DNA of 34,496 nucleotides, taken from assembly GCA_003153935.1 (NCBI GenBank), contig PMCA01000011.1, forward strand, positions 1 to 34,496. Reading direction: 5' to 3'. A program made the translations under genes and the position numbers. This DNA is from Elusimicrobiota bacterium (GTDB lineage Bacteria; CAYTYR01; UBA6262). The notes under the pieces were generated by a model. The model had not been told where the DNA came from. It ran no database searches and saw only the letters and a program-made list of their open reading frames with translations. Positions 7,391 to 30,632 of this stretch are shown here, piece after piece; the stretch's first letter is position 1; each line of letters starts with the position of its first letter.

Positions 7391-8647
7391 TTATGCCGGC
7401 CTGAAAACTTTTTCGTAATATTCTCTCACATACGCTTGTCTTCTCTTGGTCTCATCGGCTATATCGTCCAGGTTTTCTTCCAAGACATTGACCACTTTCA
7501 TGTCCAGTGCGCCTTTTTCCGCCATGTCCTTGATGATGCCCATGGCCTCGGTCATCTGCATGCCCGCGCGGTACGGACGATCCTCCAGGAGAGCGGTAAA
7601 GATATCGGCCACTCCCAGTATCCGGGATAACATGTTCAGTTTTCTATAGGTGAGGTGGAAAGGATAGCCGCTGCCGTCGAGTTTCTCATGATGGAAGGCG
7701 GCTGACTCCGCTATCTCCTCCAGGCCCCTTACTGTGCTCAGGACCACATAGGTGAAATAGCTGTGCTGTTTCATGACCGAGAATTCCTCCGCGGTCAGCT
7801 TGTCCTGCTTTTCCAGGATGCTGTTCGGCACTATCAGCTTGCCCAGGTCGTGCAGGTTGCCGGTTATCTCCATCAACTGAATTTCATAAAGGGTGAGACC
7901 GAAATACCTGGCTATTAACGCGCCCGAAGTTGATACGCCGGCTGAATGGGTCGCCGTAAAGCGGGAACGGAAGTCGATCAGGTTACGGAATACTTCCGAG
8001 ACATCCCTCAAGTCCGCCATGTCCAGGACAATGCCCCGGCTGGAGGCTTCATGCATCAGCAGGGAATAGAGCCGCGGGGACACGATGGTCAGCCAGAAAT
8101 CTTCTCTCTTGGACAAATCCTTTAAATTATCGATCAGCCCGGACTGGATCTCTTTATCAGCCAGGGGAGTGACCATATTAATGATAGTGTTTATCTGATG
8201 CAGGATATATTTGGAGCGGTTGATAGACCTTTCGACGATGTCCGCCAGGGATAGTATCTGGGCCTGAGCGGTCAGAGGCATCTCCACCGAAGGCGCCCAA
8301 TCCAGCCATTTATGATGATGCAGCCGCACGATCTTGGCCGCGGGAATAAATACCGGAACGTTTTGCAGTAGGTGCTCTCCCAATACGCAGTGCGCTTCGG
8401 TCTCCACCGTATCGGCCTGGTGCAGGTTGATCTTTTCCTCCGGGGTCAGGGCGCCAATGTCGTGCACCAGGGCGGCCACTACCAGGTTCTCTATGTCGTC
8501 TTTGTTCATGCCCGCCTCTTTGGCCAGCTCCATGGCGATATAGGCGGTCCTGATCTGGTGCTGGGCCAGCTCGGGGCTGGCCAGGTCTAGCGCGTCGGAA
8601 AATGACAGCACCAGGTTGAACAGGCTTACGGAAACACCTTTATACAT
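7391..8647 (-). CDS. Tandem HD-domain protein with C-terminal HD-GYP
   Basis: A 418-residue cytoplasmic protein with two HD modules. The N-terminal half has HDIGA (62-66) and HHHKW (110-114). The C-terminal half has the full HD-GYP set: H234, HDLGK (266-270), H285, and HHEKLDGSGYP (319-329), so it should hydrolyse cyclic di-GMP or a related dinucleotide. The N-terminal module keeps HD but lacks a GYP motif and may be regulatory. There is no receiver domain or membrane helix. It lies 12 nt upstream of the fluoride channel gene, behind an AGGAGA site. Confidence 0.9.
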   Translation of the reverse strand: MYKGVSVSLFNLVLSFSDALDLASPELAQHQIRTAYIAMELAKEAGMNKDDIENLVVAALVHDIGALTPEEKINLHQADTVETEAHCVLGEHLLQNVPVFIPAAKIVRLHHHKWLDWAPSVEMPLTAQAQILSLADIVERSINRSKYILHQINTIINMVTPLADKEIQSGLIDNLKDLSKREDFWLTIVSPRLYSLLMHEASSRGIVLDMADLRDVSEVFRNLIDFRSRFTATHSAGVSTSGALIARYFGLTLYEIQLMEITGNLHDLGKLIVPNSILEKQDKLTAEEFSVMKQHSYFTYVVLSTVRGLEEIAESAAFHHEKLDGSGYPFHLTYRKLNMLSRILGVADIFTALLEDRPYRAGMQMTEAMGIIKDMAEKGALDMKVVNVLEENLDDIADETKRRQAYVREYYEKVFRPA

Positions 8648-10313: not shown

Positions 10314-12257
10314 TTACTTGCCGAATAGCTTCTTAAGCTGGTCAGTGGCCTGATTCTTGATTTTCTCTGCGGCCTGCTTCACCGGAGCCGCCTGCCCTTC
10401 GGCTATCTGCTTGGTATAATCAGTGGCTTGCTTGGTCAGCCCATCTTTTTGCCCCTGCAGGTCAGCGAGTTTGCCGTTCACCAGGCCCATTAGCTCGGCT
10501 TTCCTCTGGTTGGCTTCAGCCAGCAACTTATCCTTCTCTACCTGGATCCTGGCGTCAAGTTCCGCCTTGACCCGGCCCTTTAGTTCTTCCATCTTACGGC
10601 CGTAGATGCCTTTGATCTTATCGCTGATGATATTATCCAGGTTGGAGTCTATGGTAGTTTGCAGGTTATCCGGCGCGCCGTAGATACGCGCGTTCAGGTC
10701 AATGGTCTGGATGCCGGAGAATATCTCGTTCAGCATCTGCTTAAGTTCGTTATTTGTTTGTTCCAGTTCGAACTGGATATCATGCATTTTTAATTGTATC
10801 TGGCAGTCCAGTTCGTCACCGGTGAGCTTGAACTGGGAAGCCACGTCATAGACGCCATGTTTGAACTTCGGCAGGAAACCATTGCCGCCCAGGTTCATTT
10901 CACCTATGGGGAAGTTCTTCACCCCGACGCCTATCGCATCGGTCGGGGTTTCTCCCGTATGGTCGAAGAGTCCGTCTAAATTATAGATACGGCTGGAGGC
11001 CTCGCCCTTGGCGTCAAAAGATGTGGGCTTGCCCCAGACTCTCTGGTCGGATGATAGATTGTTGACTACGCCGGCTACGGTAATAGCGCTGGCTTCGTCT
11101 TTACCCTCGCCACCGGTAGTGCCGGAGAGCGCTATCTTGCGCACGGAGAAGGTTGGCAGGGTTTCTTCTTTACGGAATTCTATATCCAGGCCTTTGGCGC
11201 GCGGCTTTACGGTCACGTTGGTAGCGGCTTTCTTCTTAGCCGGCATGTATTTGCGGGCCAGCTGTATATATCCCACAGTTTGGGTTACGCGGTTGTACCA
11301 CATCGGACCGAAGATGGCCTTGGCTATGCCGGCTTTACTGCCTAATCCCGGTATCTTTACTTTGTCCAAAATATTCTGGTAGTCGGCTTTGACCTGGTCG
11401 TCTATCTGTGAGGCCAGTCCCTTGGCGTCGGCATATTGCGTGGAGATGTCTTTCTGCAGGCTGGTTACCTTATTATAGGTTTCTTCAATGGCTTTCTTCT
11501 GAGTGTTGATCTTGGTGATGGCTTCCTGGACCTTTGGGATATCGGCTACGGAATTAACCTTGAGGCCCTGAACGTCCTGGATGACCTGCTTGGTGTCGGC
11601 TATCTGCTTCTCCACATTGAGGTTGGTGATGTCGCTCTTGTACTGGTTATATTTATCAGTGGAGCCTTTGTACAGTTCCTGGACCTTGGCGTAGGACTGC
11701 AGCTGCTCGCCGCTGACCAGTTTCTTGGCGTCAAAGTTCTTGATAGTGTCGCCGATATTCTGTATATCCGAAACCGCCGGCAGGGAGCCGACTTCCTGGG
11801 CAGCTTTGGCTTTCAGGGCTTCGTATAATTTGTCGGTCAGACCGGCTTTCTTTTCGTTCGCCTGCTGCTTGTTGTATTTCTTTTGTTTCCGCGGCGGTAA
11901 AGCGCCGGAAGTTGCGCGGGAAGTGCCCCACCGCAGGTTCTGTACGGTCATATTCTCAATAGCTACCTTCTTTTCCAGCAGAGGGAAGAAGCGCATATCA
12001 AACTTAATGAGGTCTATAGCCACCAGGTTCTTCATGACATCGTCTTTGTTGGCTACCTGCAGGTCCTTTATCTCCAGGGATGAATTCAGCAGGCTGGTTT
12101 TGAGCGAGGTCATCTCCACTTTGGCGCCCACTATCATCTCGCCGGTGGAAATGATGGTCCACTTGATGATGGCGTCGCGGAAGATCACCCCGACAACAAT
12201 GAATATTACCAGAACGACGGCTATTTTGATGAGTGAATTGCGCTGGAATTTAATCAT
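10314..12257 (-). CDS. TIGR03545 family AsmA-like envelope protein
   Basis: A 647-residue protein with one N-terminal membrane helix (about residues 10-29), after which ISTGEMIVGAKVEMTSLKTSLLNSSLEIKDLQV is the typical AsmA-like start of TIGR03545. A Lys-rich segment (residues 122-140), a long coiled-coil region (about 190-310) and a β-rich part (340-520) follow. The end is another coiled coil (about 545-645). The bulk should lie in the periplasm. Its ATG overlaps the stop of the TIGR03546 gene by 8 nt, and that pairing is the usual one for this family. AsmA-like proteins are linked to lipid transport and outer-membrane integrity; a role of that kind is an inference here. Confidence 0.9.
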   Translation of the reverse strand: MIKFQRNSLIKIAVVLVIFIVVGVIFRDAIIKWTIISTGEMIVGAKVEMTSLKTSLLNSSLEIKDLQVANKDDVMKNLVAIDLIKFDMRFFPLLEKKVAIENMTVQNLRWGTSRATSGALPPRKQKKYNKQQANEKKAGLTDKLYEALKAKAAQEVGSLPAVSDIQNIGDTIKNFDAKKLVSGEQLQSYAKVQELYKGSTDKYNQYKSDITNLNVEKQIADTKQVIQDVQGLKVNSVADIPKVQEAITKINTQKKAIEETYNKVTSLQKDISTQYADAKGLASQIDDQVKADYQNILDKVKIPGLGSKAGIAKAIFGPMWYNRVTQTVGYIQLARKYMPAKKKAATNVTVKPRAKGLDIEFRKEETLPTFSVRKIALSGTTGGEGKDEASAITVAGVVNNLSSDQRVWGKPTSFDAKGEASSRIYNLDGLFDHTGETPTDAIGVGVKNFPIGEMNLGGNGFLPKFKHGVYDVASQFKLTGDELDCQIQLKMHDIQFELEQTNNELKQMLNEIFSGIQTIDLNARIYGAPDNLQTTIDSNLDNIISDKIKGIYGRKMEELKGRVKAELDARIQVEKDKLLAEANQRKAELMGLVNGKLADLQGQKDGLTKQATDYTKQIAEGQAAPVKQAAEKIKNQATDQLKKLFGK

Positions 12258-12777
12258 GGATCGTGTCTCTTATCTTTTTGTATTTGTCATACCACTTGGT
12301 ATGGCCAAGGAAAGCTATAACCTTCCACTTGATGAGTTTGTCATGTACTTTGGTGCGATACAGGATGGTAAGCTTCTTGACTATCAGCCACACCGGTATG
12401 AACAGGACCAGGGAAATGATCAGACTACCCAAAACTACCGTATTATTGAAATGGGTAAAGGGCACAATGGGCATATTATATAGTTTGGTCCAGAAAGAAT
12501 TAAGCGAGGGCGTTTCTACCAGCAGTTTATAGCCTATCTTATTGGCAATGGGGTCAGTGAAGTAGCCGATGGCGCTAAAAACCGCTATGCCAATGGCGGC
12601 GGCGCCTTTGTTGACGTTGAGCAGGAACAGCAGGAACAGGATGACGTAATTATGCAGTGAGTTGAAGGGTGTGAGACCGATAATGGAGCCAAGAGCGAAA
12701 CCGGCCCCGATCTCGTCGGGGTCCTGTTTACCGCTGAATAGGCCGATGATCTGTTTTAGTGCTTTGATCCAGAACAT
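12250..12777 (-). CDS. TIGR03546 family membrane protein (DUF2062-like)
   Basis: A 175-residue protein with about four membrane helices. GAGFALGSIIGLTPFNSLHN is the conserved segment of TIGR03546 and DUF2062 proteins. A charged C-terminal tail (KWKVIAFLGHTKWYDKYKKIRDTIHD) would be cytoplasmic. It is nearly always found with TIGR03545, as here with an 8-nt overlap, so the two probably work as one complex. ATG at 12775-12777 with GAGGA eight bases upstream. Confidence 0.92.
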   Translation of the reverse strand: MFWIKALKQIIGLFSGKQDPDEIGAGFALGSIIGLTPFNSLHNYVILFLLFLLNVNKGAAAIGIAVFSAIGYFTDPIANKIGYKLLVETPSLNSFWTKLYNMPIVPFTHFNNTVVLGSLIISLVLFIPVWLIVKKLTILYRTKVHDKLIKWKVIAFLGHTKWYDKYKKIRDTIHD

Positions 12778-12865: not shown

Positions 12866-15800
12866 TTATTCCACGTACCAGAATTTACCGTTCAGGGTCT
12901 TCTGGATCTTCGCTTTGCCCTTGGCGTCCACCGCCACTTCCTCGTTAACGCTGGATTTCTCTTCATGGCGGATATTATTATCATATATTTTACCCACGAT
13001 GGTCAGGTCATAACTGACCTGGCAGGTATTGTTCTTGCCCGGTTTCACGGTGAGACCGCTGATGGTGTACTTGATCTCGTCAAATACATTATAGCTGTTA
13101 TGCAGGTAATTACGCAGGTCAGTCAGCGTCGTGCCGTCTCCGGCATCCCATTCGGGGCTGATAAAGCTCATCACTTTGGCCTCGTTCTTGTATTCATAGG
13201 CTTTGGCAAAATCAGCGTACATCTGTTTCACGGTCGCTGTTACATCGATAGCCGTAGCTGTCGGCGCCGGTACCTTGACCGCAGCGGCCGCGGCTGCTGC
13301 GGCTGCCGCATCCGCTAAGGTCTTTTTAAGTGCAGCTATATGCGTCTCCAGCGGTTTCCGGCCGCTGAACGCGGGAGCGTAGATAGTCAGGGCTTTCTCA
13401 TACTGGGTAATGGCGCCTTTAAGGTCGCCCTTTTTCTCCAGTTTTTCCCCTTCCGCCTTAACAGTATCCCCGTTGAACTGGACTATAAGTTCATCCGTAT
13501 GCTTGCGCAGGTCAGCGTTCTTTAATAACTTAATGCTTTGCTCATAATCAGCGATGGCTTCCTTCAAGTCGCCCTTTTTCTCCGCAGCTTCGCCGTTCTT
13601 ACGCCACTCTTTAGCCGCGTTAACGATATTGCGCAGGTCCTGGGTCTGTATCTCCAGTTGTTTGCGGTCAGTATATCCGGGAGGATAGGCTGCTAAAGCT
13701 TTTTCATACTTGGCGATGGCCTCTTCCAGTAGTCCCTGGTCCTTTAATTTATCTCCTTCGCCGCGTATCTTGTCCGCCACAGCGCAGGCGTCCATATATT
13801 TACAGTTAGCGATCTGCTGGGCGATCACTCCGGGATCAGCCGGCGGATGGGTTTTGATGCTGTCCTCATATTTTTTGATGGCGTCCTGGTATTTTTTGGC
13901 AGTAGCTAAAGCATCTCCTTCTTTTCTTAATTTAGCGGCAGCCTCTTTGTCCGCGGCTTCTTTAATGGCTGCGGCATCAGGACCAGCTGGGGTTGTCTCA
14001 CCGGGTTTAACTTTTCCGGGTACCTCGGGTACCCCTGGGACTGCAGGAACGCCAGTGACGGGTTTCCCGGTCGCCGCTGCCTTTTTGTCGGCGGCAGCCT
14101 TATCCGCCGCGGCTTTATCCGCGGCAGCTTTCTTATCAGCAGCGGCTTTATCAGCAGCCGCCTTTTTGTCTGCAGCAACCTTATCGGCTGCGGCTTTGGC
14201 AGCTTTGGCGTCAGCCAATGTCTTGCCCATATCGATCACCGGCTGGTATTTGCCGTTAATAGCGACCGCGACGTCGTATTCCTTCTGCGCCTCGGCCATT
14301 TTGCCGGCAGATATCATATCCCGGGTCTTGCCTAATTGCGTATTGATCTTATCTTTATCAGCTTTGATCTTTTGCAGGTAAGAAGCTATCTCCTGGTTAG
14401 CAGGGTCATCTTTGGCCGCGTCTCCGGCCTGTGATATTGCTTCCTCTATTTTGCCCTGGGCGTAAAGCTCTTTGGCCTTGGCCAGTTTTTCCAGGGCCGC
14501 TTTTTTCTGTTTTTCTTCGCGGTCTTTATCCTTGGCTTTCTGGATATCGTCCTGGGAGATGCTGACGGAGAAACTGCCCGTGCCCGTACCCAGCAATACG
14601 CCGTTATTATTCTTAACCTCTACCTTGGCCTCAGCCGTGCCCTTCTCGCCGCGCTGGACCATTATTTCGCTGCCGGTACTGCCGCCGCCGAAAGAACTGC
14701 CGGAGTTCAAGGTCCAGTTATAGTTAACGGTATCTTTGGGTTGCGGATCGACGGTTACGCTGAGACGCACATTCTGGAAAGTGGCTATCTGGCCCTCGGC
14801 TTCTACCAGACCTTCCTTAGGATTCCAGATGAGCGGTTTCGGTCCGATCGGTCCTAATACTTTTACATCTATTTTATAGGCTTTAGCGGTTACGGACTCC
14901 GACACTTCTCCCAGGTCCTCACCGGAGTGCGGTACCCTGCCCCTGGCTGTTACTTTAATAGGTATGGTGTCCGTAGCGTAGAAAGTTCTCTCTTTAGCAT
15001 TCTGCGACTCGCTTAATAGTTTGGCGTTAGCCGGCATATCCCAGCGGAAATCTATAGCTTCCATCGCCGGTGTTTCCTCAACCACAGCTTTGATCTCGTC
15101 ACCGACCAGCGGAGTTTTAGGGGTGAGGGTCAGTTTTAATCCCGGCTTGGTTATGTCCATTTCAATCTGGTCGGAAGTCGCCAGAGTGGCCAGGGCGCCG
15201 TTTTTGGATTCAAGCACTTCAACCCATATTTTCATTTTGCCCGGCTTGGTGAATTTAGTACTTGTTGTTGGAGACCCGTTCTCCGTAGGATCGAACGTAA
15301 GCTCTGAATTGGGCTGCCAGCGGTAAGTGAAATTACCCGTTGCCGGTTTGCCGCCAACTAATACCGTGGCCGTGAATTTGGCCTCAGCGCCAACTATGGC
15401 GGAATTGCCCGCCGGCGCGGTTTTTTCTATTTTGGCGGCGACATCATCTACCTGGAAGGATACGGATGTGCTGCCGATGGAATATCTTTTTCCCGCCACG
15501 TTTACTGATAAAGACTGGCTGCCTGGAGCCGTGGCCATAAATGTAACTCCCGGGCCCTTGCCGGCGTAACTGCCGCTCCAGGTGTAGGTGAACGGAGCGT
15601 CCTCAGGTTCGGCGTTCTCCACCGTTACCAGGACCTCGGAGGTCTCGCCCTTGCGCAGTTTGGTTTTGTCCGCGGTTATTTTTAACGACGGCAAAACGAT
15701 CGGCTTCTTATCCGGGCCTTTTACTATTACCCCGTCGGGCTTTAAAGTGAGCCCCATGATAATGGCTTTGGCTTCTTCCTGGGCCGCTTTGGTTTCACCG

Positions 15801-18733
15801 AAGACGAACTGCGAGTCGTCCCACCAGTACTTGCCGCCCTCGCCGCCGCAGAACCCTCCTCCTGAAACTGAATAATCTATCTGCATGTAGAACTGGCCGC
15901 AGAACATCAGGGCCCGTCCCGCGGCGGATGCTTGCGGGTAACCGACATCAACCCAATCCGATCCTCCAACTCTCGTAGCCAGCTTGCTTTCGTAGAGCAT
16001 GCCGGTAAAATTACCCACTGTGATCTTCGTGCCCGGCGTGCCCCACCTGGCGCCAAGTTCATCGAAAGATTTCTGCATTTCTTTGGGACTATAGAAAGCG
16101 CTCGTGCCGCGGTCCATGACTACGGTCACAGTTCCGTCAACCGTGGCGCTGTTTATTTCCTTGCCGTCAGCCATTCTTTTACGTACTGCCGTGGTGCGTT
16201 TGAAATTATACGGGCCGCCGGTCCAGTTACCCGGAGTGGTGGTCCCGAACGAAACTGATTTCACCGTAATGGTTTTTTTGGCGATAGCCAGGGTATTGCC
16301 CTTGGCATCCTGCATGTAACACATTATATCCACTTTGTTACCTGCGCCGATCTGGTCATTGCGTATCTGCATCTTGACGCTGGAGGTCGTAGTTTTGCCC
16401 CATTCAGACCCGGAAATGATGCTGTCATACGGGCTCCAGTTATAGCTGGCTACCGCAGCCGGCATCTCCCCCGGAACGTTAGCGCTGACATCGAATATGT
16501 CCGTGGCATTAACGCTGTCCGGGCAGTTAATAGTGGCTGTGGGAACGACAAATATCGCTTTTTGGGTAGAAATAATTACATCGTTGTTGTTACTCTTGCC
16601 TTTTAGGGTAAAGGTCAGCGCGTATTCCCCGGCGGCTGTCGGCGCCGTGAAGTTGACGTTAACCTCAGAATTATATTTCAGGTTATCCGGGCCGAACCAG
16701 GAATCATTCCGCAGCATCTTACCCGTGGTTTCGTCCTTGACCGTGGTGGAGAGACTGCTGAAATATATCTTTTTGGTGGCGGCTATTATCCCCTTGATAT
16801 TACAGCTTTGCTGCGGACCGACGATAGTTTTGGCGGGGACAGTAAGGGTGATACCGTAATCGCCGGTGAGGTTGCTCACGGTTATCTTTTTCTGGAAGAC
16901 GCCCTTGTTGACCATGCCGTCCGGACTGGTAACCGTGCAGTATACCGTAGAAGCGCCAACCTGTGTCGGGGAAAAAGTAAAGGTTTTCCCTTCCCCGGTA
17001 GCTGACACGTCGGCCTGCCATTTCACTTTCAACTTGTCGGCCATTTCCGTGGCGGTGTCGAATTCGATGGTGTAAGTAGTTGGGCTCGCCACAGTGCAGG
17101 AGTCGGGACCGACGATATAGGCCTGAACCATGCCCTCAAAGGTTGGCTGCAGTTCAAAGGTCAGGTTTGTTTCCTTAACATCGCTTTTGCTGATAGGCTG
17201 GAATCCCTTAGCTTGGATGTAAACGCTGTAGGCTTTGTCCTTATGTATTACATGTCCGTAGGTGACTTCATTATCTCCCTTGCGCTTGAATTGCAGCGCC
17301 GGGTTGCTGTCTATGTCAATGGTTATATTGCCCAGCTTGGGTGAATCCGGCTTGGTTTTGATATCGCCGGTCACCGCCATCTCGCCGTAATATTTATAAC
17401 GGATGGCCTGCTCGTCGTTGCGGAACTGGTGGTTAAAATAGCAGAGGCCGCAGAACTCTTCCTCTTTCTGCATATAGATGCGGTATTCCATCAACCGGCC
17501 CGCTTCGCTGACCAGGTAATTATCGTCATTCACCCGCCCGGCGACCTTAAGTACGTTGATAAAATCGAAATTACTCGGGCCGTCGAAAAGCGCGTAGTCT
17601 TCCCGGAACCTTTTATCGTTGGCGGATAGGTCTTTGGTGCCGACCGCTCTGGCCGCGTTGATGAAGGCTTCGGGAGTGGCCAGTTTCTTGTTATCCGCGA
17701 TCGCGCTGTTTTTAAGAGCGACATAATATTTATATAAAATTTCAAAGGAAGCGCCATTAATGTAGGCTACCACCCCGTCACCGGAATCACTGCCGTAATA
17801 CAGCACAACATCCTTGTCCGACCAGCCGCGTATGGGAGCCAGGGCCGGATGCTCGCCGTTGTTGGAGAACCAGGTTAGGCCCTCATCAGCCGCTACTGCC
17901 GGGCATTCCGCGAATATCTTCTTTTTGATATCTATATCCACGCCGATCTGCCCGCCCAATGACCCTTGCCGGCTATCTTTTAATTTCTTATCCAGGTCGT
18001 CCAACGCGGCAACAAAATGGTCAGTAGCCTCGGCATAACCGGAGATGATCTTGCCGATCAAAGGGAATTCTTCCGTGAAACCACCCATATAATCCAGCAC
18101 GCCTTTGATCTTCTTCAGGCTGTTGGTTGGAGTGCCATCGCCGTTGGGATTGAAAGTATCGACGAACTCCACGGCTTTGTCAATGTTGCCCAGCAATTTC
18201 TCGCCGGCGTCGAACTGTTCTTTAATGGCTCCCAGTTTCTCATAAACGCCATTGTCGCGCAGCTTGCGGTCGTAAGAACTCAAGGTGTACATATAACCGT
18301 ATTTTTTGGCCTGGTCGGCGGTGAGGGATTTAAGGATCTTCGCGCTTAGCTTGCTCTTGATACCATCCGGTATGCTCTCCGGGATATCCACTCCGGTCAT
18401 TTCCTTGAGTTTTTCCGCCAGGGAATCGATCGCGCCCAGTTGTTCCTTGGTCATGTCCTGGATGTTCTCGATAGCCTCGTCCTGCATATCTTTACTGCAG
18501 GCCTTGCGCCATTGGCTCATGTTGCCGTTGAAGTTGCCGAAGAAATCCGTAGCTCCGTCAACTTTATCCTTGGTGCCTTTGAAAACTCCTTTAAAAGAGT
18601 CATAGGCGCCTTTGAAACTCTCGTAGGCTGCCTGGTCCGCCTCCGCCGCGTTGCTAATAGCAGGATAAAATAAAAAGAACGCCACACTGGTAATAAAGCT
18701 GGCGTTCAGTAACCGGAAGATGCGCGATTTCAT
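12866..18733 (-). CDS. Giant secreted multidomain protein (1955 residues)
   Basis: Not recognised as a whole. The order is: signal peptide (1-30, cut near SNA|AE); helical region to about 290; a mixed domain with a FCGLC motif near 430; a carboxypeptidase-regulatory-like or PEGA-like β unit (about 460-535); a chain of Ig/PKD-like β units (about 540-1395, with repeated YNW, FRW, YRW and YTW patterns), interrupted near 820-1000 by a Gly/Cys-bearing globular domain; a linker with TPR-like helices (1400-1500); an Ala/Lys/Asp-rich TolA-like stretch (about 1507-1556); a Pro/Gly hinge; three or four TPR-like units (1598-1815); a poly-Ala run; and an NTF2-like domain (1828-1955). I chose ATG 18731-18733, seven bases after AGGAG, over a TTG six bases earlier. 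It lies downstream of the β-barrel and 429-residue genes. A scaffold on the cell surface or in the periplasm is likely. Confidence 0.8.
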   Translation of the reverse strand: MKSRIFRLLNASFITSVAFFLFYPAISNAAEADQAAYESFKGAYDSFKGVFKGTKDKVDGATDFFGNFNGNMSQWRKACSKDMQDEAIENIQDMTKEQLGAIDSLAEKLKEMTGVDIPESIPDGIKSKLSAKILKSLTADQAKKYGYMYTLSSYDRKLRDNGVYEKLGAIKEQFDAGEKLLGNIDKAVEFVDTFNPNGDGTPTNSLKKIKGVLDYMGGFTEEFPLIGKIISGYAEATDHFVAALDDLDKKLKDSRQGSLGGQIGVDIDIKKKIFAECPAVAADEGLTWFSNNGEHPALAPIRGWSDKDVVLYYGSDSGDGVVAYINGASFEILYKYYVALKNSAIADNKKLATPEAFINAARAVGTKDLSANDKRFREDYALFDGPSNFDFINVLKVAGRVNDDNYLVSEAGRLMEYRIYMQKEEEFCGLCYFNHQFRNDEQAIRYKYYGEMAVTGDIKTKPDSPKLGNITIDIDSNPALQFKRKGDNEVTYGHVIHKDKAYSVYIQAKGFQPISKSDVKETNLTFELQPTFEGMVQAYIVGPDSCTVASPTTYTIEFDTATEMADKLKVKWQADVSATGEGKTFTFSPTQVGASTVYCTVTSPDGMVNKGVFQKKITVSNLTGDYGITLTVPAKTIVGPQQSCNIKGIIAATKKIYFSSLSTTVKDETTGKMLRNDSWFGPDNLKYNSEVNVNFTAPTAAGEYALTFTLKGKSNNNDVIISTQKAIFVVPTATINCPDSVNATDIFDVSANVPGEMPAAVASYNWSPYDSIISGSEWGKTTTSSVKMQIRNDQIGAGNKVDIMCYMQDAKGNTLAIAKKTITVKSVSFGTTTPGNWTGGPYNFKRTTAVRKRMADGKEINSATVDGTVTVVMDRGTSAFYSPKEMQKSFDELGARWGTPGTKITVGNFTGMLYESKLATRVGGSDWVDVGYPQASAAGRALMFCGQFYMQIDYSVSGGGFCGGEGGKYWWDDSQFVFGETKAAQEEAKAIIMGLTLKPDGVIVKGPDKKPIVLPSLKITADKTKLRKGETSEVLVTVENAEPEDAPFTYTWSGSYAGKGPGVTFMATAPGSQSLSVNVAGKRYSIGSTSVSFQVDDVAAKIEKTAPAGNSAIVGAEAKFTATVLVGGKPATGNFTYRWQPNSELTFDPTENGSPTTSTKFTKPGKMKIWVEVLESKNGALATLATSDQIEMDITKPGLKLTLTPKTPLVGDEIKAVVEETPAMEAIDFRWDMPANAKLLSESQNAKERTFYATDTIPIKVTARGRVPHSGEDLGEVSESVTAKAYKIDVKVLGPIGPKPLIWNPKEGLVEAEGQIATFQNVRLSVTVDPQPKDTVNYNWTLNSGSSFGGGSTGSEIMVQRGEKGTAEAKVEVKNNNGVLLGTGTGSFSVSISQDDIQKAKDKDREEKQKKAALEKLAKAKELYAQGKIEEAISQAGDAAKDDPANQEIASYLQKIKADKDKINTQLGKTRDMISAGKMAEAQKEYDVAVAINGKYQPVIDMGKTLADAKAAKAAADKVAADKKAAADKAAADKKAAADKAAADKAAADKKAAATGKPVTGVPAVPGVPEVPGKVKPGETTPAGPDAAAIKEAADKEAAAKLRKEGDALATAKKYQDAIKKYEDSIKTHPPADPGVIAQQIANCKYMDACAVADKIRGEGDKLKDQGLLEEAIAKYEKALAAYPPGYTDRKQLEIQTQDLRNIVNAAKEWRKNGEAAEKKGDLKEAIADYEQSIKLLKNADLRKHTDELIVQFNGDTVKAEGEKLEKKGDLKGAITQYEKALTIYAPAFSGRKPLETHIAALKKTLADAAAAAAAAAAVKVPAPTATAIDVTATVKQMYADFAKAYEYKNEAKVMSFISPEWDAGDGTTLTDLRNYLHNSYNVFDEIKYTISGLTVKPGKNNTCQVSYDLTIVGKIYDNNIRHEEKSSVNEEVAVDAKGKAKIQKTLNGKFWYVE
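14066..14215 (-). repeat. Low-complexity Ala/Lys/Asp codon repeat inside the giant gene
   Basis: About 50 codons made almost only of Ala, Lys and Asp in units such as AADKKAAADK. It resembles the TolA domain II helix, which spans the periplasm. The coding repeat is degenerate at the DNA level (several Ala and Lys codons are used), so it is kept by protein selection and is not a simple DNA microsatellite. Confidence 0.8.
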
Positions 18734-18756
18734 TGGCAACTCCTTTGTGATGTAAC

Positions 18757-18786
18757 AGGGCTGTCCCGAATGATCGGGACAACCCT
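18757..18786. other. Strong hairpin between two cotranscribed genes
   Basis: A 13-bp stem with one mismatch (AGGGCTGTCCCGA at 18757-18769, TCGGGACAACCCT at 18774-18786) and a 4-nt loop. On the minus strand it sits between the 429-residue and giant genes and is followed by GTTACATC, not a T-run. It is therefore better read as an mRNA-stabilising or partial-attenuation hairpin, or a dispersed repeat, than as a terminator. Confidence 0.75.
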
Positions 18787-18810
18787 GGTTGTATATATTG
18801 GAGAAATTAT

Positions 18811-20100
18811 TTAGTTAAAAGTCGCTCCGCTGGCGGAATATTTATATCTGAGCGTAGTCACCGGGATGGACACGCTGACGATCTCAATGACGCCGTAATC
18901 GCCGCCGGGCAGTTTAAACGCATAGCTATGGCCCGCTGCCACATGATGGTCGCCGCTGGAAGTACCGTAGCCCGAGGTCGGGACGCTGGAAACGCTGCTC
19001 AGGCTCTTCATCCCAAGGTCAATGAAACCTACGCCGGAGTTGGTCACCAGGTGGTGGTTGTCGCCGTAAATACCGAAGTCCCCGGTCAGGAAAGATGCGC
19101 CCCAGGATTCAGCAGTCTTGGTCCCAGTAGCGAAGGAGAAGCTGTCAAAGCTCCAGGCCCAGCCAACATTGACATAAGACATTGTAGTCACGCTGCCCGC
19201 GCTGGCGGTACCGCTGCTGCTGCCGAGCGAACCGCTATCGGACAGGCCTATCTTCACATCGCTATTGCCGACCGTAACATTACCGGTGGCGATATTGGAC
19301 GCATCGCTTAAGCCGAAAAGCAAGGGCGCTTTCATGGAATAAACTTTCGGGCCGTTGTCACTGAGACGGAAAACGAACTCGGTCATGCCGGTGTCGCTCA
19401 GGGTCTGTCCAGTCTGGGAAGAGGTCACTGTGCGGCTGAAAGTCAGGGACACGGAAACGTCGCCCTTTTTGTTGGTAGTGATGTTATTAATGGTGAAGCG
19501 CAGGCCTATCTTGTCGAAAGCGCTGAAATCTTTGCGCACTGCGCGGTCCAGGATGCTCTTGTCAGCGGCAAAATCATCGCTGATGTAGGTATCGAACTTG
19601 GGCGCGTTCTCAGTCTGGTAGGCGTCAACCAGGCCATTCAATACGCCCGTGACCAGGTCCCGCAGACTGCTGGCGGAAATGGTTACTTGCTTATAAGTTC
19701 TTTCTATATCATTGGTTTTGCCGCGAGTGTCCATGATCTTGACAAAAATATCATAGGTCTTGTCCATTTGAGGTACAAAGACGTAGTCAAAGGTGCCGTC
19801 TTTATCCAATTTGGCTTTTTCCCACTTTACTTTATTATTGGTGGAAATTTGCACGGCGCCGATCTTGGCAGTGCCAGCGCTGGCCTTGCCCTTGATCTCG
19901 ATCGCCCCATTAGGCAGCATCTCTTTGATCAGCATGACCTTCTGGCCGCCTTCATCGAAGGACACGCCGTTCAGGTAGAGATACTTGACGGTGATCTCGT
20001 CCTGGGACTGGCCGAATATCCACCATTTGGCCTCTGCACTGCCGCCGAGCAGCAGCACCGCCGTCATTACAATTAGCAACAGGTTTAATAATTTTTTCAT
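18811..20100 (-). CDS. Secreted protein with Ig-like and NTF2-like domains
   Basis: A 429-residue secreted protein. Residues 1-24 are a signal peptide (cut after SAEA). An Ig-like β domain (about 35-143) reads GAIEIKGKASAGTAKIGAVQI and ends with KTYDIFVKIMDTRGKTND. An NTF2-like domain follows (about 146-262) that lines up with the C-terminus of the giant protein in the next gene: both have a helix with VDAY/AKAY, then a (Y/F)IS-acidic-acidic-(F/W) turn, then FD(K/E)I and alternating strands. The Ser/Gly-rich C-terminus (280-429) is a further β domain. The gene lies 9 nt after the β-barrel gene. An AGGAGGA site precedes the ATG. I do not recognise a named family. Confidence 0.78.
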   Translation of the reverse strand: MKKLLNLLLIVMTAVLLLGGSAEAKWWIFGQSQDEITVKYLYLNGVSFDEGGQKVMLIKEMLPNGAIEIKGKASAGTAKIGAVQISTNNKVKWEKAKLDKDGTFDYVFVPQMDKTYDIFVKIMDTRGKTNDIERTYKQVTISASSLRDLVTGVLNGLVDAYQTENAPKFDTYISDDFAADKSILDRAVRKDFSAFDKIGLRFTINNITTNKKGDVSVSLTFSRTVTSSQTGQTLSDTGMTEFVFRLSDNGPKVYSMKAPLLFGLSDASNIATGNVTVGNSDVKIGLSDSGSLGSSSGTASAGSVTTMSYVNVGWAWSFDSFSFATGTKTAESWGASFLTGDFGIYGDNHHLVTNSGVGFIDLGMKSLSSVSSVPTSGYGTSSGDHHVAAGHSYAFKLPGGDYGVIEIVSVSIPVTTLRYKYSASGATFN

Positions 20101-20109
20101 CTTATCCTC

Positions 20110-21699
20110 CTAAAACTGGGTGCTTAAACCGGTTAAGAATCCGGTTTCGCGGAAATCGTTAGCGGTAGTGGTATAGCTATAGGAATTCACGAATACTTTG
20201 ACGTAAATGGTGCCTCTTACCTGCGCCAGGAAATCAGGACGGTAGTAAGCGTCGCCGCTGAAAAAGAATTTATTTGAATCCTCGGAGGAAACGCCGTTCT
20301 TCAACTGGTTCGCCCCAACGCGGGCATGCACCACGATGTTCTTGGCGGGCATTTCCAGAGCGGAACCGAGTGCGTATTCCAGGATGCTGTTGGACTTACT
20401 GGCCAGGCTATCGCTCATGTTCCATACGCCCAGGGAAACATTGGGCCGCAGGGTCATGTCCTGCATATTGTATTGGGTACCGATCATGGTATTGAAAGTG
20501 ATCTCGGAACTGTCTTTGATATTGTCTTCGGTGTTGTACTTGGTGTAGCCGAGATTGCTGTCAGTGTCAAAGTTGCCAAATCTGTCGCGATAATTGGCAT
20601 TAAGGATATTATCATTGGTTTTGACATTGCCGGTAGTCTGGTGGAAGAGTTGATAGACAAAATCGCCGGTGGCGGTAGAACGCATGAACAGGTTGCGGAC
20701 GGTCACGCCGGCTTCCGGTCTCATGGAATTAGTGGTGTCCGCCAGGGCAGCATCGAGGTTATTGCGGTACCACAACAGGCCCACGCGGGTGGTGACATCA
20801 TCGTTGTATTTATAGCGCCATTGGGTCTTGAATTTATCGCGGTCAGGGGTGGCCGCTCCTAATAAGGTAACGAACCTGGGAGTCACTCTCTCGAACTCCG
20901 CGGTGACCCGGCTGGGTCCGCCGGTGCCGACAGCGCCGATCTTGAACGCCGATCCGTGACGGGAATCATCAGAGGTATCCTTGATCTTGATGGTCGCGGC
21001 GGAAGTAGCCAGTTCGCTATTTAACAACAGTCCGGGTAAAGGATTGTATTCGGCGTCAATAGAGTAAACCCTGTTGGTGTAAGCCGGGTCGGTATCCACC
21101 ACCCGGGTGCCGGTATCGTCAAAGGCCCCAATAACGCTGAAGCCCGCGGTCCACTCGGGATTGAAAGTATGACGGATTGTACCGCCCAAGGCGTGACGGC
21201 GGATGGTTTTAACATCGTCAGCGCCCGCTAAACTGTCCCAGCGCGGATAAGCCATGCCATAGATCAGGCCGACGTTCTGCAATGCTGAATTGGCGTCGTT
21301 ATAACGGTAGGAAATACCCTTTAAAGCGCTGTTCAGGGTATATTGGGAATAATATTCCAGGACATCGCCCGCGGTATAAGTATGGATGTTATTGCTGTAG
21401 CGCGCCTGCAAATTGGTCAGTGAAACATTTTTGACGTCATTACGGATGTCATCGGTGAACTTGAAGCCGCCTAAATACTGGTATTCGTAACCGTTGGCCA
21501 GCTTGCCGCCGCCGTTTATGCCCAGCAGGTCCAGGTAACGGTACCCTTTGGACAGGGATGAATTGTCTTTGCCGTCTCCGGTAATGCTGGTGTAGCCAAG
21601 CTGCAATTCGTTGTTGAAGTGGATGTTTTCCAGCGCCTGGCCAACCGAAGCTATGGTCAGCAGAGCTGCGATGAGAAACAATAAGCGGGCAACCTTCAT
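20110..21699 (-). CDS. Outer-membrane β-barrel protein
   Basis: A 529-residue protein. Signal peptide MKVARLLFLIAALLTIASVGQA, then alternating amphipathic strands throughout (for example YEYQYLGGFKFTDD, KTQWRYKYNDDVTTRVGLLWYR) ending in a terminal Phe (LSTQF), which is the BAM recognition end of outer-membrane β-barrels. Length and strand density fit a barrel of roughly 18 or more strands, but no porin family is evident. I chose the ATG at 21697-21699 behind AAGGAG; a longer frame starting 42 nt upstream lacks a ribosome site. It heads a three-gene run with two secreted proteins, so it may be their export or anchoring partner. That link is an inference. Confidence 0.85.
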   Translation of the reverse strand: MKVARLLFLIAALLTIASVGQALENIHFNNELQLGYTSITGDGKDNSSLSKGYRYLDLLGINGGGKLANGYEYQYLGGFKFTDDIRNDVKNVSLTNLQARYSNNIHTYTAGDVLEYYSQYTLNSALKGISYRYNDANSALQNVGLIYGMAYPRWDSLAGADDVKTIRRHALGGTIRHTFNPEWTAGFSVIGAFDDTGTRVVDTDPAYTNRVYSIDAEYNPLPGLLLNSELATSAATIKIKDTSDDSRHGSAFKIGAVGTGGPSRVTAEFERVTPRFVTLLGAATPDRDKFKTQWRYKYNDDVTTRVGLLWYRNNLDAALADTTNSMRPEAGVTVRNLFMRSTATGDFVYQLFHQTTGNVKTNDNILNANYRDRFGNFDTDSNLGYTKYNTEDNIKDSSEITFNTMIGTQYNMQDMTLRPNVSLGVWNMSDSLASKSNSILEYALGSALEMPAKNIVVHARVGANQLKNGVSSEDSNKFFFSGDAYYRPDFLAQVRGTIYVKVFVNSYSYTTTANDFRETGFLTGLSTQF

Positions 21700-21730: not shown

Positions 21731-21797
21731 CACAAATGCAAAAGCTGGGTTATAATACACCCAGCAGCCGATAAATTCCTTGGTAATGCTATTTGTG
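21731..21797 (-). other. Structured 5' leader of the β-barrel operon
   Basis: On the minus strand a 10-bp outer stem with a bulged A (CACAAAT-A-GCA pairing with TGCATTTGTG, outer arms 21731-21740 and 21788-21797) encloses a perfect 7-bp inner hairpin (GCTGGGT and ACCCAGC, 21744-21765). It ends about 30 nt before the ATG. No known riboswitch consensus (c-di-GMP, cobalamin, preQ1) was recognised. Confidence 0.5.
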
Positions 21798-21835
21798 CCC
21801 CCTAATATTTTATGAGTATAATATATAACAAATTA

Positions 21836-21876
21836 CAAAAAAAATCAACAAATTTTTTAGTTTTGTTGATCTTTTT
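21836..21876. terminator. Intrinsic terminator after the DEAD-box gene
   Basis: A perfect 9-bp stem, ATCAACAAA (21844-21852) and TTTGTTGAT (21862-21870). On the minus strand, in which the helicase gene ends at 21911, it is followed by an 8-base T-run (complement of the A-run 21837-21844). On the plus strand CTTTTTAT follows, so it may work both ways. Confidence 0.82.
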
Positions 21877-29531: not shown

Positions 29532-30632
29532 ATGATAAAACCTAATCCTTTTACGCCTCAATCCGGCTGGGAACCGAAGATATTCGGCGGTCGGCTGGAA
29601 CAAGTAGAGCACTTCGAAAAGACCCTGGCCGAAGCTGCCGCTACCCGCGCCAATCATATGGTAATTATCGGCCAATGGGGTATCGGTAAGACCACCCTGC
29701 TCAAGCAGTTCAAGAAAATAGCCCAGGCTAACGGCTATCCGGCCAGTTACTGCCCGATCAGCCAGGTCAAGGAACACTCTTCCGTCTCCAGCGCCATTAA
29801 CCTTATCTCCCAGGAGATAGTTAACGGACTGCCCCAACCGATCAAAGAACCCGGGCAGATTAAGCAAAAATTACAGCCGCAGGTGCAGTTCACCCGGTTC
29901 CTGCAGGAGCTCTGGCCCCAGTTAAAAGCCAAAGTGGCGGTCGTTTTGCTGGATGATGTGCAGAACCTGGCCACTGTTTCCAGCATCATCGACATGCTGC
30001 GAGCGGTCCTGAGCAAGGAAGAAATTATCAATGATACCCGTTTTCTGTTCGTCCTGGCCTCGACTACCGAGGGCTGGGACAATTTTGTCAATAAACACGA
30101 TCCGGTCGGCCGCTTTTTCCGCCGGCGGGAAATGATCGGCAAATTAACTTATCCGGAAACCGAGGCGGTCATCGCCAGTACCCTGGAAAAATCCGGAGTG
30201 GTCTTTGATCCCCGGGTGGTCGCGGAGATCTTCCGCTATACGCAGGGTCATCCTTATGAACTGCAGTTATTGGCTAGCCATCTATTCGAAGCCCAGCTGG
30301 AAGGCCGCGTCGGCCTGACCGAATGGGTACCGGCGTTCCGCAATACCCTGAGGGAACTGGGCAAAGATTACTTTGAAAGCCTGGCGGAAAGAGCCAGTGA
30401 CAGGGAAAAAGAGGTATTATTAGTATTGGCTGAAGCAAGGGGACCTTTAGCGCAGGGAGAGATCAGAAGGATAATGATCGTGGAAAAACATGCTAAGAAT
30501 TTCCCGGTGGCTAACATCAAAAACTTTCTTTATCGCCTGCAAAACAAAGGACTAATAAGACGCCTGGACGACGGCACTTTCCAGATATTAGACCCGATCT
30601 TCGGAGAATACATCCTCAGCAGCGCTCAATAA
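29532..30632 (+). CDS. Orc1/Cdc6-like AAA ATPase with C-terminal winged helix
   Basis: A 366-residue ATPase. Walker A is GQWGIGKT (47-54) and Walker B is AVVLLDDVQNL (136-146). A sensor region follows (FLFVLASTTEG), and an arginine-containing FRRRE. The C-terminal 70 residues read REKEVLLVLAEARGPLAQGEIRR and FLYRLQNKGLIRRLDDGTFQI, a winged helix. The layout is that of archaeal Orc1/Cdc6-like and STAND-type ATPases found in prokaryotic accessory regions. Its 3' end overlaps the convergent DUF4921 gene by 7 nt. DNA binding is likely; the biological role is unknown. Confidence 0.83.
   Translation: MIKPNPFTPQSGWEPKIFGGRLEQVEHFEKTLAEAAATRANHMVIIGQWGIGKTTLLKQFKKIAQANGYPASYCPISQVKEHSSVSSAINLISQEIVNGLPQPIKEPGQIKQKLQPQVQFTRFLQELWPQLKAKVAVVLLDDVQNLATVSSIIDMLRAVLSKEEIINDTRFLFVLASTTEGWDNFVNKHDPVGRFFRRREMIGKLTYPETEAVIASTLEKSGVVFDPRVVAEIFRYTQGHPYELQLLASHLFEAQLEGRVGLTEWVPAFRNTLRELGKDYFESLAERASDREKEVLLVLAEARGPLAQGEIRRIMIVEKHAKNFPVANIKNFLYRLQNKGLIRRLDDGTFQILDPIFGEYILSSAQ

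Follow-up and report, generated by a model that had tools for sequence, protein, structure and literature searches.

A three-gene cassette in the 34,496-nucleotide stretch of Elusimicrobiota DNA analysed here (the window) may be one lineage's own version of a barrel-NTF2 envelope module that recurs in other bacteria, in which periplasmic NTF2-like partners would hold larger envelope proteins to an outer-membrane β-barrel (probability about 0.45). The coupling of barrel and NTF2-like domain is itself well supported by sequence comparison: in distant bacteria the NTF2-like domain again stands next to related barrels, or is sometimes fused to them, and the pairing thus looks like a real envelope module. 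As the sequence-only reading had proposed, it also appears, provisionally, to be undescribed; no paper on the pairing was found in the open-access literature, a scope that mostly leaves out subscription journals and preprints.

The three genes run in one direction on the minus strand, as originally claimed, each with an AGGAG-type Shine-Dalgarno sequence upstream of its start and a Sec-type N-terminus recognised by inspection. The first (20110-21699, ATG at 21699) encodes the barrel, a protein of 529 amino acids with a signal peptide. After a gap of 9 nucleotides, the second ORF (18811-20100, start at 20100) encodes P429, a secreted protein of 429 amino acids with an Ig-like, an NTF2-like and a C-terminal β-rich domain. 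A further gap of about 77 nucleotides separates it from the third (12866-18733, ATG at 18733), which encodes a secreted protein of 1955 amino acids, here called the giant. The second gap contains a perfect 14-bp hairpin (18756-18787, minus strand; fold z -7.2) that has no T-tract, so the giant is likely to be co-transcribed with the upstream genes. The possibility that this hairpin is an abundant repeat was rejected, as just 4 sites in the genome have GTCCCG...CGGGAC stems, versus 3 for the control. Upstream of the barrel is a promoter-like site (21820-21848, minus strand), of a class found no more often than expected by chance (9 found versus 10.4 expected). Downstream of this site, the barrel leader carries a terminator-like hairpin with a T-rich tail (21744-21765); an Rfam search of the leader for a riboswitch returned no family.

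TIGR03546 and TIGR03545 genes follow the cassette (10314-12777). In the sister genus this pair stays together without the cassette upstream. The gene upstream of the pair is M48 peptidase-like in genome G003 and a different one in G001. Elsewhere in the window, an AAA/STAND-type ATPase gene (AAA_16, nSTAND1; 29532-30632, plus strand) lies on the strand opposite its neighbours. At E 1e-3, neither the three same-family genomes searched nor the one same-class genome had a match to any of the three cassette proteins, so the cassette would have been either gained in the window's lineage or lost in its sisters. Conservation of the exact three-gene set is not supported: the cassette is missing from these three same-family genomes, and residues 1-1444 of the giant have no whole-length relative, the one homologous stretch among 366 genomes being 70 residues long. 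A contig scan with the giant sequence found no relative. Because the giant is unique, evidence for its role comes from a single locus.

The product of the first gene is probably an outer-membrane β-barrel. It has 22 amphipathic-strand peaks versus 9.5 in shuffles (z 4.9), and its terminal residue is F, as in its relatives; the AF2 model, with a pLDDT of 28, does not confirm the fold. There was no match to it in Pfam (E up to 1), NCBIfam or, by sequence, the PDB. At the same threshold, no Pfam domain of TonB-dependent receptors, two-partner secretion, ushers or intimins was found; membership among the autotransporters, ushers, TonB receptors or OmpA proteins was rejected because their domains are missing. 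By sequence homology, the window barrel belongs to a family of probable outer-membrane barrels that is uncatalogued: the Pfam and NCBIfam libraries searched contain no entry for it. An HMM of the G124 and G261 barrels matches the window barrel with an E-value of 1.5e-5 in a search that included about 2,000 decoys, and blastp aligns it with the G173 barrel at 25% over about 300 amino acids (E 1.2e-7, in a small database) and ties it also to the G274 and G022 barrels. These results are independent of the 16-row barrel-family profile (A4), of which the window barrel is one seed. With E up to 1e-4, the profile picks up members in 57 of the 366 bacterial genomes sampled, though its weaker matches may include other barrel types. 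Homologous barrels come from many families whose lowest rank in common with the window is the domain. Two Lindowbacteria-type barrels, L133 (from 141) and L134 (from 6), carry an in-frame TPSPQPSPSKEGEGANGSNPLPLGGEG stretch in a loop, missing in the other two aligned, that looks like a translated repeat element.

In P429, an Ig-like domain (residues about 45-140; 19681-19968, minus strand, as for all domains below) has weak similarity to Pfam Big_13/Big_6 and aligns with the Ig domains of relatives. The NTF2-like domain follows (residues about 143-268; 19297-19674), and then a C-terminal domain with a GHSY motif (residues about 277-429; 18814-19272) that was aligned with G090 and G231 and has weaker matches in G141 and G325. 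The full architecture of Ig, NTF2 and C-terminal domains is present in both G090 and G231. When 336 genomes were scanned with P429, six places covering the NTF2-like domain were found outside the window (two each in G124 and G261, one each in G072 and G090); the G090 match covered the C-terminal part of P429, in an ORF with all three domains. All six have a barrel gene close by, no more than about 6 kb off. P429 had no match among plasmids, and a PDB search by sequence gave nothing useful.

The sequence-only reading had given the giant PKD-like units, TPR-like repeats and a TolA-like helix. The TPR repeats (residues about 1660-1785; 13379-13756; another at residues 1417-1453) score above the Pfam cut-off (PF07719, 36.9 bits versus 27), the PKD-like unit (residues 1316-1378; 14600-14788) falls below its own (PF00801, E 8e-4), and the likeness to TolA (phmmer E 4e-4) is that of a low-complexity, Ala/Lys-rich helix (residues 1511-1586; 13976-14203). 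Further Ig-like units are probable between residues of about 600 and 1400.

A second NTF2-like domain is found at the C-terminus of the giant (residues about 1834-1928; 12950-13234). Direct phmmer comparison of the P429 domain with this C-terminus is within the shuffle background (E 0.16), but the shared domain that had been aligned by eye is borne out by a family profile and by structure prediction. The profile was built from 16 relatives, none from the window; two of them (L082 and a 188-amino-acid L078 protein) were first noticed through their position at barrels, the rest through domain searches. Its E-values are 7.8e-17 for P429 and 8.9e-6 (24 bits) for the C-terminus of the giant, versus about 5,000 shuffles of which the best reached 0.06. 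The AF2 model of the last 131 residues of the giant, with element order H-H-H-E-E-E, is of moderate confidence (pLDDT 69, pTM 0.58) and is NTF2-like, having helices followed by a curved antiparallel sheet; its input alignment held P429 and Lindowbacteria rows, which could bias the model towards that fold. Foldseek matched the model mostly to NTF2-like domains among its best PDB hits (E about 4e-4); the CaMKII association domain and the Pgp2 NTF2 domain are among the hits. P429 is assigned to the superfamily by profile only. Together, the profile matches and the AF2/Foldseek results argue that the two domains are related at superfamily level: common family membership is supported by the profile, and a common fold is probable on the model.

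Across genomes, the two components of the window arrangement, a barrel of the A4 family and an adjoining NTF2-domain protein, are found together far more often than expected. Within 29 barrel-bearing genomes, a count that takes in seed loci, 25 of 47 NTF2 matches have a barrel no more than 6 kb away, versus 0.43 expected under uniform placement. A neighbourhood survey had been named as a way to refute the proposal, and for the barrel-NTF2 pair its outcome is favourable. The other 22 matches are away from any barrel match, some of them at contig ends. Non-seed examples of linkage include fusions in G033 and G316 and NTF2 neighbours in G137 (C126), G072 (C119), G214 (C32) and G316 (C94). NTF2 neighbours of barrels are on the same strand in 18 of 20 cases, often within about 40 nucleotides. 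In all three genomes of family f31 (two Candidatus Lindowbacteria and one unclassified groundwater bacterium), a single ORF continues from the last barrel strand into the NTF2 domain. In G173, the barrel is followed after 11 nucleotides by an Ig-NTF2 protein and then by a large secreted protein with YadA_head repeats. Two NTF2 proteins at one barrel are not peculiar to the window: G022 (L078) has an NTF2 lipoprotein-like gene, the barrel and a FecR/Ig/NTF2 protein, and G033 (L092) has an NTF2-bearing 821-amino-acid protein followed by a barrel-NTF2 fusion. Among 58 locally annotated barrels, an NTF2 domain is fused or nearby in 23 and FecR is nearby in 25, proportions that are not population estimates because the 58 include the seeds as well as the loci through which the family was first picked up. 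By this sequence survey the barrel family is broader than the barrel-NTF2 module, many members going with FecR and CHASE2 genes instead.

Outer-membrane barrels usually have periplasmic ends, and NTF2-like domains commonly dimerise, although they are common domains and not all bind partners. If both ends of the window barrel face the periplasm, its NTF2 partners, and the domain fused to the barrel in other lineages, would act there. P429 would then lie where the barrel opens into the periplasm, and there its NTF2 domain could pair with the one at the end of the giant; this pairing would keep the giant, with its TPR repeats and Ala/Lys helix, attached to the outer membrane, where it would serve as a tether or docking platform. 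Other lineages may have FecR/Ig, β-helix or other large secreted proteins in place of the giant. The NTF2-NTF2 clasp, the role of the giant and any fibre are inferences; the surface scaffold or fibre suggested earlier has nothing in its favour, and a surface location of the giant is likewise unsupported. A bolder form of the idea is doubtful: an undescribed envelope machine in which an NTF2 copy at the barrel face, separate or fused, clasps the copy that ends a large exported protein, so that each lineage could attach an interchangeable surface or periplasm-spanning part. Through the NTF2 linkage and fusions, a barrel family without a Pfam or NCBIfam entry gains its first partner, and the linkage provides a testable hypothesis for how the outer membrane holds large exported proteins in little-studied phyla.

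The chief rival explanation, which we consider unlikely, is that the NTF2 domains bind peptidoglycan and not each other, in which case the barrel-NTF2 combination would be an OmpA-like tether of outer membrane to cell wall, with P429 and the giant as wall-bound periplasmic proteins. The OmpA-like layout of the Lindowbacteria fusion fits this explanation, as does the presence of Pgp2 among the Foldseek matches: there is precedent in the NTF2 domain of Pgp2, which binds peptidoglycan fragments, and in that of Bd1075, which targets Bd1075 within the periplasm (PMC8938487). However, the NTF2 domains in that precedent are joined to a peptidoglycan enzyme, whereas Pfam finds no such enzyme in the window proteins, and wall binding leaves the recurrence of two NTF2 proteins at one barrel unexplained.

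Less likely still is a role for the barrel as an export pore or as a FecR/CHASE2-type signalling receptor, with P429 and the giant as substrate and as the sensor part replacing FecR in the window lineage. FecR-domain genes do stand beside 25 of the 58 annotated barrels, six barrel neighbours that were checked are CHASE2 cyclases, and this wider setting points to a signalling function in part of the barrel family. In the window, however, the large ORFs gave no FecR hit, Pfam finds no FecR in the three genes themselves, and no cyclase is among the scanned neighbours; the nearest signalling gene encodes an HD-domain protein (7391-8647). As to a pore, the large secreted neighbours vary, and export is putative for all of them. 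That these are unrelated, ordinary envelope genes in an accidental order, with a generic superfamily likeness between their NTF2 domains, is very improbable. NTF2-like domains are indeed widespread, the direct comparison of P429 with the giant is not significant and sister genomes lack all three genes, but the 25 versus 0.43 enrichment and the barrel-NTF2 fusions make accident already unlikely for the barrel and P429.

The module reading can be set against several known systems. FecR/CHASE2-cyclase envelope clusters have been described in Campylobacterota (PMC9239204), so the wider context is partly known. At L117, L118, L122, L124, L129 and L086, from several sampled families, a FecR-domain gene, a family barrel and a CHASE2 adenylate cyclase adjoin one another. 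Barrels of the same family adjoin such genes in many sampled genomes, whereas the window cassette has NTF2 proteins and no FecR or CHASE2 found near. Intimin/invasin and two-partner secretion systems likewise combine a barrel with Ig-rich proteins, but here the Ig parts are on separate proteins and the barrel has no matching Pfam family. The predicted fold of the giant's domain resembles the NTF2-like superfamily of DUF4440/SnoaL-like proteins (PF14534), and a G072 relative of the P429 NTF2 domain has a sub-threshold match to DUF4440 (E 2e-4); unlike those, the domains here belong to exported proteins, are combined with Ig or TPR parts and are linked to a barrel. The Lindowbacteria fusion, a barrel and then a periplasmic domain, recalls an OmpA-type tether, but the barrel is long and NTF2 replaces the OmpA domain; Pfam did not find the OmpA peptidoglycan-binding domain in the cassette proteins. 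Bd1075, Pgp2 and Csd6 are likewise exported envelope proteins that end in a periplasmic NTF2-like domain (PMC8938487); the window proteins have no peptidoglycan carboxypeptidase domain, and they have a barrel partner.
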